From a virus, in IMG/VR virus record IMGVR_UViG_3300034522_000022, positions 1 through 29,907 of that record: 29,907 bases of DNA, one strand, 5' to 3'. The position numbers and the translations under genes are program-made. The notes below the pieces were generated by a model that made no database searches, was not told where the DNA came from, and saw only the letters and a program-made list of their open reading frames with translations. Below, one piece after another: positions 19,805 to 27,498 of the stretch. Every line of letters begins with the position of its first letter. Position 1 is the first letter of the stretch.

Positions 19805-19975
19805 GGAATAGGTTTGATGTCTTTCCATCAGTCCGTCAGCACCGCCCCGGTAAGCACAAATGAGGTCTGGGGTTGCTGACTGCCGGTGTTCTGCCGTAAC
19901 GCGTGACTTCCGGCTATACCGCGTCCAGGCCCGCCCGAAGGCCCACCCTGGCTGTGGCTCTCGCGACAAAATCGC
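19805..19975. other. Non-coding spacer between two terminators
   Basis: No supported gene, promoter or strong repeat. The frame that crosses it on the minus strand has no start with a ribosome site and would contain a terminator. Confidence 0.6.
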
Positions 19976-21288: not shown

Positions 21289-21875
21289 AGGGTGGCACTC
21301 CGTACTTGCAGATATTCATTGGGCATCGTGTCATCGCGGGACTGGGCAGAGATCGCGTGGCTCCAGGCTCGATACGCCTCCTCGGGCGAATCTCCAACCC
21401 CGGCCCACGGGTGTTTCTTCGAGTAGCACCAGAACGTGCCACTGCGGCCGGTGATCCGCGCCTTCGGTAACCGGCCGGTAAACCCGACCTTATGCCGCGC
21501 CAGCCAGCCTTCTACCGCGGGCCAGATGATTGCCTGCTCTGGCTTGGAGAAGTCGAACTTTCCCCCATTGCTGTAAACCTCGGCCAGGCCGTAGTCCTGG
21601 TTGGCCACCCACAGAACGAAACCACTCGGCGTATGGATCAGCGTGTAGCCCTTCATCTTCCAGGCCCAGTCTTCCGGAAAATTCAGGATCGACGCAGCGA
21701 TGCGTTCAGCTTCGAGTTGCTCGGGCGCCGAGACCACCTTCAAACCCGGCGGTAGAGCGTACGGTTCACCCGCCTCAAGCGCAGATTGCAAGGCCCCAAG
21801 TGCTTCGCCGGCAATTAGCGGTGAGGGAGCGACGCGGTGTTGCCGAAAGATTTTTGCCAAGCTGGAAATTTTCAT
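21285..21875 (-). CDS. Hypothetical phage protein
   Basis: A 196-residue protein directly after the helicase gene, overlapping it by four bases. It has an N-terminal helical third, a central WAWKMKGYTLIHTPSGFVLWVANQDYG with aromatic strands, and a C-terminal RTG-type segment SGTFWCYSKKHPWAGVGDSPEEAYRAW. The last part resembles the small PEEAY motif seen in many uncharacterised phage proteins. I do not recognise its function; the context suggests a replication-linked accessory. Confidence 0.72.
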   Translation of the reverse strand: MKISSLAKIFRQHRVAPSPLIAGEALGALQSALEAGEPYALPPGLKVVSAPEQLEAERIAASILNFPEDWAWKMKGYTLIHTPSGFVLWVANQDYGLAEVYSNGGKFDFSKPEQAIIWPAVEGWLARHKVGFTGRLPKARITGRSGTFWCYSKKHPWAGVGDSPEEAYRAWSHAISAQSRDDTMPNEYLQVRSATL

Positions 21876-23245
21876 TTCCCCTGCCTCCCCTTGTACTGGT
21901 CTGCGAAGGGGCGCCCGATCTCCACCTCTTCCTGGGTGGGCTCGCGGCCCGCGAAATCAACGAATCGGGCGAACTTGCCCTGCTGCTGGACGATGCATGA
22001 ACCCACCGGCGCGTGCCGACACTTGGGCATAAGCAGCTCAGTCGCGCCGTTCTGCCCCTCCTCGCTGTCCATGTCCCGGTGGACCAGGATGATGCAGTGG
22101 GCGTCAGCCTCGATCTGTCCGGAGTCGCGCAGATCGGAGGCGATCGGCTTCTTGCCCGGGCGTTTGGTTGAATCTCGGTTGAGCTGAGCCAGCAGGATCA
22201 CTGGCACTTCCAGCTCCTTAGCGATATTGACGATGCCCGTGGAGATCTTGCCCAGCTCGGAGGTACGGTTAAACGCCTTGCCGTCTGAGCCGATCAGCCC
22301 GATGTAGTCGATCACCACCACGTCGAGGCCGTGCTTGCGCTTTACCTGTCGGCAGATGCTGCGTATGCGCGGGACGGTCAGGCCCGACTTGTCGCTGACG
22401 TACAGCGGCTTATCCATGATCTTGCTGACTGCCGAGGTCAGCCGCGGCCAGTCCTCATCGAGCAGCTGACCGTTATCCAACACTTGCAAGTCGACATTGC
22501 CGAGAGACGCTAACGCTCTGTTTCCGAGTTCCTCCTCAGGCATCTCCAGAGAGAACACCATGCCAACGCCCAGGCCAGTGCAAGCGATATGCTGGGCGAT
22601 CTGCAGGCCGAGCGTTGTCTTGCCACTACCCGGCAGGCCGGCAACGATGGTCACAGTCTTTTTGCGCAGCCCGCGGATCAGCTTGTCCAAGTCTGCCAAT
22701 CCGGTTGACAGACCGGTTTTCAAGGTTTTGTTGAACTTGGAGTCGATGATGTCGATGTTCCGACTGACCACCTCGTCCATCCGCTTGTAGTCGGGTTCAC
22801 CCGTGTCCAGGTCGCGCAGATCCGCCATCGCCTGTTGCGCACTGGCGATGATCTCGGCCACTGGCTTGTTCTCGCTGGCCGAATCCCGAACGGCGTCTGC
22901 AGCATCCACCAGGCGGCGCAATACAGCCCGTTCAGCAACCGTTCTGGCGTATGCCTTCCAGTTGGCGGTGCTGGGCGTGTTCTTTGCCAGTTCGCCTGCG
23001 TAGGCAATCGTCGCCCCACCACTGGGCAGATACGGCTTGAAGTCGTGGAGCGTGACGGGATCAACAGGTGCACCAGTCGCATGCAGGTCGAGCATCACCT
23101 GGAACAGCGCCGCGTTTTCCGGATCATGGAAGTCCGCCGTGGTGACGCTGGCGGTGATCGAATCAAACAATTCGCCATCCAGCATCAGTGACCCAAGCAG
23201 CGCGTGTTCAGCCTCGTCGCTGTATAGCTCGCGATAATCGTTCAT
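21872..23245 (-). CDS. dnaB: Replicative DNA helicase, DnaB-like
   Basis: A 457-residue DnaB-family helicase. The N-terminal helical domain spans about 8-110 (EAEHALLGSLMLDGELF). The RecA-like domain has Walker A GLPGSGKT (203-210), SLEMPEEEL (232-240), Walker B VVVIDYIGLI with Asp313, then LLAQLNR and SDLRDSGQIEADA. It unwinds the phage fork, and the preceding DnaC-like gene supplies its loader. Length matches bacterial DnaB. It is translated through ATGA overlaps on both sides. Confidence 0.95.
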   Translation of the reverse strand: MNDYRELYSDEAEHALLGSLMLDGELFDSITASVTTADFHDPENAALFQVMLDLHATGAPVDPVTLHDFKPYLPSGGATIAYAGELAKNTPSTANWKAYARTVAERAVLRRLVDAADAVRDSASENKPVAEIIASAQQAMADLRDLDTGEPDYKRMDEVVSRNIDIIDSKFNKTLKTGLSTGLADLDKLIRGLRKKTVTIVAGLPGSGKTTLGLQIAQHIACTGLGVGMVFSLEMPEEELGNRALASLGNVDLQVLDNGQLLDEDWPRLTSAVSKIMDKPLYVSDKSGLTVPRIRSICRQVKRKHGLDVVVIDYIGLIGSDGKAFNRTSELGKISTGIVNIAKELEVPVILLAQLNRDSTKRPGKKPIASDLRDSGQIEADAHCIILVHRDMDSEEGQNGATELLMPKCRHAPVGSCIVQQQGKFARFVDFAGREPTQEEVEIGRPFADQYKGRQGK

Positions 23246-24039
23246 ACGCGCCCCCTTGCCGATTCCCAGGTGAAGCCGACCAGCAGCGCCTTGTTCTCGC
23301 GCAGGCGGTCGAGGGCTCGCTCGCCGATGTACTGGCTCAATCCCTGAGCGTTCAGATTGGACACCACCACCGTCGGGCGGATCAGGTTGTACCGGCGGTC
23401 CAATACCTCATGCAAGACCGACAGCTCGTAATGGGTACCGGCCTGGGCGCCCACCTCATCGATCACCAGCAGGTCGAAACTTGCCAGTTCGTTGATCACG
23501 TCGCCTTCGGTGTAACCGGCGTTGCGATCCATCGAGCGCTTGAATACACGAATGATCTCGGCGGCCGTGGTGATCACCGCCACGGCCCGGTGCTGGCGAA
23601 TGACGTGCTGAACGATGCTGCTGGCCAGGTGCGTCTTGCCGTTGCCGACGTTTCCGCACAGCAGCAGATTGCGGCCGGCTTGGAAGTGCTCGCCGAAGTT
23701 GTCGGCGTAGGCCTGGCAGGTTTCCAGCGCCTGGGCCATTGCCGGGGTGGTGCCGCGGTAGCTCGCGAAAGTGCTATCGGCAAACCGAGGCGTGATACCA
23801 GAGCCTACAAGCGCGGTGTTGACGCTTTCGGCTTGCAGGTTGGTCAGCGCCTGCGAATGCTCTTCACTGCCCTGCGACGCTACGCGCAGGCCGTGGAACT
23901 GACACTGCTTGCACGGACGGACAGCCATCGAGCCGTCGAACTGCTCGACCTCGGAACGATCAATCGAACCGTGGACTGGGCACTCACCGGCGAAGGCGCG
24001 CTGCTCAGGCTGGCGGCGGAAATTAGAACGCTGGGCCAT
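23242..24039 (-). CDS. DnaC-like helicase loader (AAA+ ATPase)
   Basis: A 265-residue protein from ATG 24039, which has GGAG seven bases upstream. This start lies 17 bases inside the preceding gene and is better than longer frames. The N-terminus holds a probable zinc site (Cys20, His23, Cys43, Cys46). The AAA+ core has Walker A GNVGNGKT (129-136) and Walker B LLVIDEVG (190-197), followed by VVSNLNAQGL (sensor 1) and ERALDRLRE. It loads the downstream DnaB-like helicase, as DnaC does in E. coli. Confidence 0.92.
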   Translation of the reverse strand: MAQRSNFRRQPEQRAFAGECPVHGSIDRSEVEQFDGSMAVRPCKQCQFHGLRVASQGSEEHSQALTNLQAESVNTALVGSGITPRFADSTFASYRGTTPAMAQALETCQAYADNFGEHFQAGRNLLLCGNVGNGKTHLASSIVQHVIRQHRAVAVITTAAEIIRVFKRSMDRNAGYTEGDVINELASFDLLVIDEVGAQAGTHYELSVLHEVLDRRYNLIRPTVVVSNLNAQGLSQYIGERALDRLRENKALLVGFTWESARGRV

Positions 24040-24787
24040 TTCCGTCTCCTTGGTACATATCCGGGGTGTGGTTGGGCAGGCCGGTGAAGGCCGAGGCTTT
24101 CGCCGCAGATGCCGGTACCAGCTCATCAGTCCAGCGCTCACCGTTGAGCCAAGTAGCCGCATTCGGAACGTAGCGGCCGTTGTCCTTGGTCCAGTCTTCG
24201 GAAACGCAGTGGCTACCCAGGGCGGTGATCAGGGTCTGGCGTAGCTCATCGTTCGGTTTCAGCTTCGCCCATGCCTTGATCGCTTCCTTGCGAGCTTTCT
24301 TTTTCGGGTACAACTTCCAGAACCGTTCAAACCCTTCATCCGAAAGCACTTTTTTTGCGCCTGATGCCGGAGTGTTTTTAATGCTCTTTGTATTGTTGCT
24401 CTGTGTATTGTTCCCCTGCGTGTTTTCCGAAGGGGGTTCGCCGTCTTTTCCGAAGGGGTTCGCCGCGTTTCCCGAAGGGGTATTCGGAAAACCGAAGGGG
24501 TCAACAAGTCGCAGACGACGCTCGACTACGCGCTTGCCTTCGCGGATCAATTCCACCCGCAGGTGACCCTTATCAACCAGACCGCTGATGATCTCCGAAA
24601 CCCTGGAGATAGACAGGTCGAAGAATTCAGCAAAGTGGGCGTTCGTTGCATAGCAGCCGCGGGGGCCTGTCTCCAGGCTTGATATCTCGCCCAGCATGAC
24701 CTTCTCATTTGGCGACAAGGTTCGATCAAGCCAGCGCTCTGCGGGAATCCAGACACCCTGGAATTTGCGTGGAGTGTCGGCAGTCAT
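24023..24787 (-). CDS. Phage replication initiator, lambda O-like, with origin inside the gene
   Basis: A 254-residue protein. Residues 10-95 form a winged-helix region (LSPNEKVMLGEISSLET, then FFDLSISRVSEIISGLVDKG). Residues 96-121 are a Pro/Gly-rich linker encoded by the iteron DNA. A polar Asn/Thr linker follows, then a C-terminal domain with FERFWKLYPKKKARKEAIKAW, typical of phage replication proteins that contact the loader. It should bind the iterons in its own gene and recruit loader and helicase. ATG 24787 overlaps the preceding stop. Confidence 0.87.
   Translation of the reverse strand: MTADTPRKFQGVWIPAERWLDRTLSPNEKVMLGEISSLETGPRGCYATNAHFAEFFDLSISRVSEIISGLVDKGHLRVELIREGKRVVERRLRLVDPFGFPNTPSGNAANPFGKDGEPPSENTQGNNTQSNNTKSIKNTPASGAKKVLSDEGFERFWKLYPKKKARKEAIKAWAKLKPNDELRQTLITALGSHCVSEDWTKDNGRYVPNAATWLNGERWTDELVPASAAKASAFTGLPNHTPDMYQGDGNGPAF
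24345..24426 (-). other. AT-richer stretch beside the iterons, candidate unwinding element
   Basis: Coding DNA for the polar linker of the O-like protein, visibly richer in A+T than surrounding sequence (runs TTTTTTT and TTTTTAATG, repeated GTATTGTT). Its side relative to the four repeats is the same as in lambda ori. Confidence 0.5.
24427..24500 (-). repeat. Iteron cluster, probable phage replication origin
   Basis: Four copies of CCGAAGGGG begin at 24427, 24450, 24472 and 24492 (spacings 23, 22 and 20), each with a short T- or A-rich lead. The last two are joined by a TTCGG-AAAA-CCGAA dyad (24483-24496). They lie in the linker part of the O-like gene, as lambda ori does. Confidence 0.82.
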
Positions 24788-26640: not shown

Positions 26641-26861
26641 TCGCGAGCTCCCGCTGAATTCATGACTTCGCAAAAATCGTCATGCGCTTGGGCGGAGATC
26701 AGCAGCACAGCGCGCATTACTGCGTCGACGTCCAGGTGTTCGAGCTGTGGCTCTGGATCGGAACCGCGCAACGCCTCGTTGTTGATCAGGATTTTGCTCA
26801 GTTGGTTTATCGTGAGCAGCGCATTTTCCAGACGATCCGGGAGCAGGGTTTCACGGCTCAT
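26637..26861 (-). CDS. Small helical protein of unknown function
   Basis: Seventy-four residues, two predicted helices (RLENALLTINQLSKILINNEAL and VDAVMRAVLLISAQAHDDFCEV) separated by a polar loop. Four-base overlaps with both neighbours. Unknown family. Confidence 0.65.
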   Translation of the reverse strand: MSRETLLPDRLENALLTINQLSKILINNEALRGSDPEPQLEHLDVDAVMRAVLLISAQAHDDFCEVMNSAGARE

Positions 26862-27169
26862 GGCTGCACCTCGGATTCCCGCGCCACGTTTTCGATCTGC
26901 GCAGAACGTGGCGCGGGAACAAGGGCCGCAATCTTCTTGAATTGCTCAAAAGCTGCCTCAAGACTCGTCGCGCCGGAATCGTCGAAATACTTGGCCAAGT
27001 CCGCCAGTACCGGAACATCAGCGCCGCCACCAGTCTCAACGTCGCGAGCGATGGCGCGAGCGATGGCGCGAGCGATGGCTGCAACCCAGTTGCAAATATC
27101 AATGGTCGCAAGCACCTGGAACTCCGCCTCGTCAGCCAGCTCCTTAATTTCATTCGACTGGATATTCAT
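26858..27169 (-). CDS. Small early protein with internal AIAR repeat
   Basis: A 103-residue protein from ATG 27169, which has GGAG six bases upstream and an ATGA overlap with the previous gene. The helical N-terminus (NEIKELADEAEFQVLATIDI) leads to AIARAIARAIAR, encoded by a perfect 12-bp triplication, and then ADVPVLADLAKYFDDSGA. No known family. Copy-number change of the 12-bp unit would keep the frame. Confidence 0.65.
   Translation of the reverse strand: MNIQSNEIKELADEAEFQVLATIDICNWVAAIARAIARAIARDVETGGGADVPVLADLAKYFDDSGATSLEAAFEQFKKIAALVPAPRSAQIENVARESEVQP
27044..27079 (-). repeat. Perfect 12-bp tandem repeat, three copies
   Basis: The unit gcgagcgatggc (plus strand) occurs at 27044, 27056 and 27068 without mismatch. 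It lies inside the gene at 26858-27169 and encodes Ala-Ile-Ala-Arg three times. Confidence 0.9.
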
Positions 27170-27498
27170 GCTTGCTCCCTCTCTGCAACTTCCGAGGGAA
27201 GGCCTTTCTGTACGGACCAAAGAAGAGCGCTGATGCTGTCGGCGACAAACTCCAAGGTTTCCATGCCGTCGCAATAAACCATCTCGCCGTAGTTCAGGCT
27301 GTCATGCATGTGACGACAGATCTGACCGAGACCCGAAGCGAGGGTGCGGGCCTTTTGGATCGCATCGCGCGATTCAATACCGGCAACGACCTGGAGCATT
27401 TGGACACCTGTGTTGCTGATAGGTGTATTGCAAAAATCAACCACAAGTGTGAGTGAGTCTTGCGCTATGGGTTGATTGTTGCTATTTTTTGGGTGCAT
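27166..27498 (-). CDS. DUF3077-like small protein, first gene of the early block
   Basis: A 110-residue protein. The second half matches the pattern of the Pseudomonas DUF3077 family: LQVVAGIESRDAIQKARTLASGLGQICRHM, then a helix ETLEFVADSISALLWSVQ. Members are common in Pseudomonas genomes and prophages; the function is unknown. GAGG precedes ATG 27498 by eight bases. The gene starts after a 276-base stretch without large genes. Confidence 0.65.
   Translation of the reverse strand: MHPKNSNNQPIAQDSLTLVVDFCNTPISNTGVQMLQVVAGIESRDAIQKARTLASGLGQICRHMHDSLNYGEMVYCDGMETLEFVADSISALLWSVQKGLPSEVAEREQA

Follow-up and report, generated by a model that had tools for sequence, protein, structure and literature searches.

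A predicted theta-type replication origin embedded in the initiator gene of a Pseudomonas-type prophage

Four copies of a short repeat lie inside a protein-coding gene of the virus record analysed here (the window, i.e., the whole stretch of 29,907 bases), raising the question of whether they belong to a replication origin, and which protein would bind them. The gene (24787..24023, an ORF of 254 aa) is on the minus strand and is matched across residues 11-233 by phrog_270 (replication initiation protein, E=1e-45). We regard it as highly probable that nt 24377-24502 form the theta-type replication origin of a Pseudomonas-type prophage, embedded in its initiator gene. An origin of this placement is a known kind; the exact sites are supplied here.

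The original prediction put the repeats in the linker-coding part of a lambda O-like gene. They do lie in that linker, between the parts encoding the winged-helix and C-terminal domains, but the protein has no match to the lambda O Pfam family (Phage_rep_O, PF04492) at E<=0.01, a threshold at which the lambda O control gave 6e-36. Profile comparison with lambda O by hhalign was likewise negative, remote O-like PHROGs were the only lambda-O-type matches, and RepA_N (PF06970) was not among the Pfam matches. The HTH_36 winged helix was matched weakly (E=2.5e-4, just below its curated cut-off), and was found in the N-domains of 17/17 diverse relatives; DnaD_N (PF21984) matched 10/17 of these N-domains, the window protein itself being without a match. 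With an HTH_36 N-domain and a phage replication C-domain, the protein has the composition of an HTH_36-type phage initiator. The best fold matches of its AF2 model were RepA_N initiators and DnaD, all weak (best E=5.6e-3), the closest being the pSK41-type RepA_N NTD. Judged by sequence, the initiator belongs to neither PF04492 nor PF06970, and its N-domain resembles HTH_36, DnaD_N and RepA_N initiators.

In the AF2 model, a winged helix (residues 16-94; pLDDT about 72-89 across residues 21-100) is followed by a disordered linker and a helical C-domain, with the domain break at 100-149. The N-domain (24506..24769, minus strand, residues about 7-94; HTH_36 and DnaD_N in relatives) is the predicted reader of the repeats. 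The C-terminal helical domain (24140..24340, minus strand, residues about 150-216) is swapped among relatives and presumed to contact the loader or helicase; the model of this domain is too uncertain for interpretation (pTM 0.36). Downstream on the same strand are genes for a DnaC-like helicase loader (23242..24039; phrog_50, E=7e-67), which overlaps the 3′ end of the initiator gene, and a DnaB-like replicative helicase (21872..23245; DnaB_C, E=1e-73). The loader start, an ATG at 24039, was picked by eye in an ORF that opens at 24162.

The repeats (iterons) are exact copies, as originally described, of CCCCTTCGG on the minus (coding) strand at 24492, 24472, 24450 and 24427, or of CCGAAGGGG on the plus strand (24427-24435, 24450-24458, 24472-24480 and 24492-24500). 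The gene being on the minus strand, the orientation first given has to be reversed and the iteron read as CCCCTTCGGAAAAC. In gene direction the spacing is 20/22/23 (23/22/20 on the plus strand), at gene offsets 287, 307, 329 and 352. Taken at greater length, they are direct repeats of the class of about 14-20 bp: iteron 1 (24487..24500, CCCCTTCGGTTTTC, with its core CCCCTTCGG at 24492-24500), iteron 2 (24467..24480, CCCCTTCGGGAAAC), iteron 3 (24445..24458, CCCCTTCGGAAAAG) and iteron 4 (24422..24435, CCCCTTCGGAAAAC), all on the minus strand. When the synonymous codons of the initiator gene were permuted 20,000 times, keeping its protein and codon usage, four copies of any 9-mer within 120 nt never occurred, and three copies were reached in 13 trials. 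The origin region contains no DnaA box.

The TTCGG/CCGAA dyad is also real. It is a hyphenated palindrome, TTCGGAAAACCGAA (24483..24496), centred on iteron 1, and is the sole perfect match of its dyad type in the window; once a single mismatch was permitted, matches in the window were no more numerous than expected by chance. Its right half, CCGAA, is retained in relatives (mean 4.97 of 5). As iteron 1 carries the full palindrome, around an A4 tract, binding by a dimer is probable there, and since iterons 2-4 each have just one clear half-site, dimer binding at these is uncertain.

The coding-strand sequence directly past iteron 4 is AACAATACACAGAGC AACAATACAAAGAGC, and here lie two 15-nt direct repeat units, both on the minus strand and both kept in relatives: 24397..24411, with AATACA at 24404-24409, and 24382..24396, with AATACA at 24389-24394. 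They fall within the predicted unwinding region (24369..24418), the locally least stable 50-mer, which has an A-rich coding strand, is 60% AT (41.7% for the window) and ranks in the least stable 0.8% of window 50-mers. The flanking AT-richer stretch of the original prediction is thus present, and can be refined to a specific, conserved AATACA doublet. Among 34 distinct relatives that keep the array, the distance from the start of iteron 4 to that of the first AATACA is 26 nt in 32, and the second lies 15 nt further in 29.

To guard against bias, N-domain relatives were also fetched by protein alone, giving 82 representatives (<=85% identical). Their iterons vary widely (TATTTAGAAAA, GGTGTCAAG, TATTGCGGAAAC and others), and AATACA is the commonest paired 6-mer in their linkers (56/82; mean 7.2 and maximum 12 under synonymous permutation). 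Its reverse complement was paired in 0/82, the signal being confined to the coding strand, and 49 of 64 neighbouring pairs are 15 nt apart, with the consensus ARTAATACA. The dominance of AATACA is seen in GC-rich and AT-rich genomes alike, and named carriers include phages of Pseudomonas, Lysinibacillus, Staphylococcus and Fusobacterium and a Paraclostridium plasmid-prophage; a Flavonifractor phage has a single copy. The units are nearly always in frame, encoding S/N-N-T, and the Thr codon of NT motifs is ACA in 66/98 cases against 24/303 elsewhere (p=6e-31, mostly from GC-rich carriers), the 98 including the Asn-Thr of iteron 4, whose Thr codon is ACG. In the sequences compared, the AT-rich flank is a second element, recurring in phages of very different bacteria. 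AATACA is not universal: it is missing downstream in 5/76 N-domain relatives (L291, L295, L296, L303 and L305), other A-rich repeats take its place in phi31, BK5-T and 80alpha, and lambda has one ATTACA. A protein-blind scan for AGTAATACA pairs placed 26/137 among the matches listed in N-domain ORFs. Most of the listed matches were ordinary coding repeats (PSNT-type), and for this reason AATACA was judged on protein-retrieved sets only.

What the doublet does can be read in two ways. It may be an A-rich unwinding region of the ordinary kind, unstable but read by no sequence-specific protein, a serious prospect that we rate a little short of an even chance. Known unwinding regions need low stability, and lambda, phi31, BK5-T and 80alpha have other A-rich repeats at this place; a single 6-mer that outnumbers all others, on one strand, in GC-rich as well as AT-rich genomes, and with a preferred 15-bp spacing, is not what such a region would call for. 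Alternatively, ARTAATACA-N6-ARTAATACA would be a cross-phylum origin element of HTH_36 initiators, a strand-specific signal for single-strand recognition or helicase loading that is inherited with the winged helix and stays constant while the iterons change; the chances of this stand level. No relevant description of AATACA as an origin element was found in the openly accessible literature, and it is the doublet, among the parts described, that may be new.

Recognition of AATACA as a single strand is a hypothesis with about even odds. It is modelled on the DnaA-trios and DnaD element of Bacillus oriC, likewise short strand-specific elements beside double-strand sites. To our knowledge, Pseudomonas has no DnaD. 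The strand opposite ARTAATACA is TGTATTAYT, with the TnnT spacing of the DnaD element, and this likeness is offered as an analogy only. DnaD needs TnnT in pairs (PMC10201434).

The layout is that of lambda ori without its sequence, as originally proposed. In lambda gene O, four iterons likewise lie in mixed reading frames where the linker of the initiator is encoded, spaced 20/24/23 rather than 20/22/23, with hyphenated dyads around an A tract followed by an A-rich coding strand (with ATTACA in lambda). Lambda differs in its iteron sequence, in the PF04492 family of O, and in using P and host DnaB, whereas the window phage encodes DnaC-like and DnaB-like proteins. The lambda AT-rich unwinding region is already known (PMC7466680, PMC6022878), and, while O can bind without it, unwinding depends on it (PMC7466680). 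The RepA_N plasmid pSK41 similarly has four Rep boxes in the middle of rep, 23 bp apart, then AT-rich 15-bp repeats. The NTD of its Rep binds the Rep boxes, the part encoded by the ori is a dispensable linker, and the CTD is conserved only within a genus (PMC5703833). It differs in being a plasmid, in the Pfam family of its NTD (RepA_N) and in lacking AATACA.

In the account of Perez-Roth 2010 given in PMC5703833, plasmid pPR9, with a pfam13730 NTD on a pSK41 CTD, replicates. This parallels the window, in that a phage-type HTH_36 NTD and its origin work as a cassette on another CTD. The pPR9 rep gene has repeats followed by AATAATAC units at a 15-bp period; its iterons are different, and AATAATACN units stand in place of the AATACA doublet. 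Staphylococcus phages 77 and 80alpha and Lactococcus phages BK5-T and phi31 (all HTH_36) have repeats in the linker directly after the N-domain, each with its own iteron sequence; a putative rep_origin is annotated at that place in 80alpha and a repeat_region in BK5-T. Phage 77 has AATACA-type repeats, and the other three have related A-rich triplet repeats. Annotated or experimentally used origins thus occupy the same place in lambda, BK5-T (repeat region), 80alpha (putative), pSK41 and pPR9. Outside this set, SPP1 oriL lies within gene 38 (PMC5499656).

A winged-helix protein on repeats within its own gene could also repress that gene, and the repeats might be operator sites, and no origin, for control of the operon by the initiator itself or by another regulator. 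We think this very unlikely, given that the sites are about 290 nt inside the gene, that they coincide in position with known origins, and that an unstable AT-rich element follows and is conserved together with them.

Across 2.9 million viral contigs, a search for CCCTTCGGA pairs made without regard to the encoded protein returned 52 stretches, 42 of them with the 22/23-bp spacing. Of these, 38 were in ORFs with this N-domain and one was the truncated edge of a gene of this type; the remaining three (L080, L083 and L096) were GC-rich tandem repeats of CCCTTCGGA type, unrelated to the origin. Among the ten stretches of spacing 21, one (L113) was a diverged initiator and nine were unrelated. Eight loci (L037, L039-L045) share the N-domain and the array and have other C-domains. 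Conversely, both CCCCTTCGG and AATACA are missing from eight genes with the same C-domain and another N-domain (six IMG/VR loci and the named P. aeruginosa phages U2 and Pacha). Finding relatives of the same N-domain without the repeats had been named as grounds for abandoning the origin; they keep them, and it is the genes with another N-domain that lack them. Because the array tracks the winged helix and is absent from the eight genes sharing only the C-domain, the four repeats are very probably the binding sites of the initiator, and the origin, as originally predicted.

U2 and Pacha carry their own array, AACGGGGTGCA four times in the same linker (offsets 286, 326, 348 and 370), embedded in their initiator loci (L483 1970-2809 and L484 2018-2857), and it is predicted to represent a second origin class.

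Since N- and C-domains are freely exchanged at the linker, its DNA might instead have been conserved as a junction for swapping initiator halves between phages. This we consider more doubtful still than an operator. Homology for exchange requires neither four spaced repeats nor a constant 20/22/23 spacing, and the array accompanies the N-domain side only; the exchange may be a by-product.

For an origin, the linker should be under selection as DNA. The spacing is exactly 20/22/23 in 31 of the 34 relatives that keep the array. The iterons are in codon frames 2,1,2,1, and the same DNA consequently encodes PFG at some sites and PSE or PSG at others. L006 has the array shifted to frames 0,2,0,1, its iterons 1 and 3 coding for PLRK instead of the PFGK of other relatives, and L049 similarly retains the DNA with an altered peptide. 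The check originally proposed, conservation of the repeats at synonymous positions, gave a clear result. Where amino acids are shared, synonymous codon identity is 91% in the iterons and 86% in the AATACA region, against 49% in the N-domain and 54% in the C-domain (Mann-Whitney p=6e-18, a value as much descriptive as inferential, as the columns share ancestry). Bounded by this conservation, the origin core spans 24377..24502 (minus strand, codons 96-137), a block wider than the range 24427-24500 first given, which holds the repeats and leaves out the AATACA doublet. The fixed spacing, the use of two frames and a synonymous identity of 91% against about 50% indicate that the linker DNA itself is selected. 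Across these sequences, then, the iterons and the AATACA doublet are shown to be under selection at the DNA level and to pass on together with the winged-helix N-domain. An origin of the repeats in selection for the peptide of the linker (NPFGK, PSEN and SNT motifs), to which the in-frame S/N-N-T of AATACA might point, is contradicted by the different frames and peptides of the iterons, by L006 and L049, by the frozen synonymous sites and by the use of the rare codons ACA and AAT.

Under the origin reading, we propose that every CCCCTTCGGAAAAC iteron is bound by the N-domain, with the array wrapped in the manner known for lambda O and RepA. By comparison with the same two systems, wrapping would destabilise the adjacent A-rich region, with melting at 24369-24418. 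The AATACA pairs may mark the strand to be held open, and their being read as a single strand is speculative. The opened strand would then receive the DnaC-like loader and DnaB-like helicase, products of the genes just downstream, from the C-domain, with the linker peptide itself serving mainly as a spacer.

The sites provide exact, testable predictions for a large and mostly uncharacterised class of phage initiators, and show winged helix, iterons and unwinding element passing as a single cassette among phages whose replisome contacts differ. Should AATACA be read as a single strand, the information in phage origins would be of the kind found in DnaA-trios, and strand choice for helicase loading by O-like initiators would become directly testable.

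Several other features were seen in the course of the searches. The initiator of L114 (5118-6695) carries two winged-helix domains in tandem (HMM i-Evalues 3e-24 and 2e-29), and the iteron array downstream of these is partly preserved. An ORF with CCGTACCCTTCGGATAAAAAT repeats every 21 bp (L086 2565-2595, L088 7062-7113) looks like a further initiator-type gene missed by the N-domain HMM. Acinetobacter phage D2SVT (PQ554527.1) and Enterococcus phage vB_ElaS_B1578 (PQ283533.1) gave identical initiator match statistics despite being assigned to very different hosts, possibly reflecting a mislabelled or contaminated record. Elsewhere in the window, a short tandem repeat, CGCGAGCGATGGC, occurs at 27043-27071, where the minus-strand ORF 26858-27274 reads AIARAIARAIAR, and 19878-19957 (minus strand) matches the Rfam Proteo-phage-1 RNA (RF03044, 70.3 bits), a small phage RNA family.
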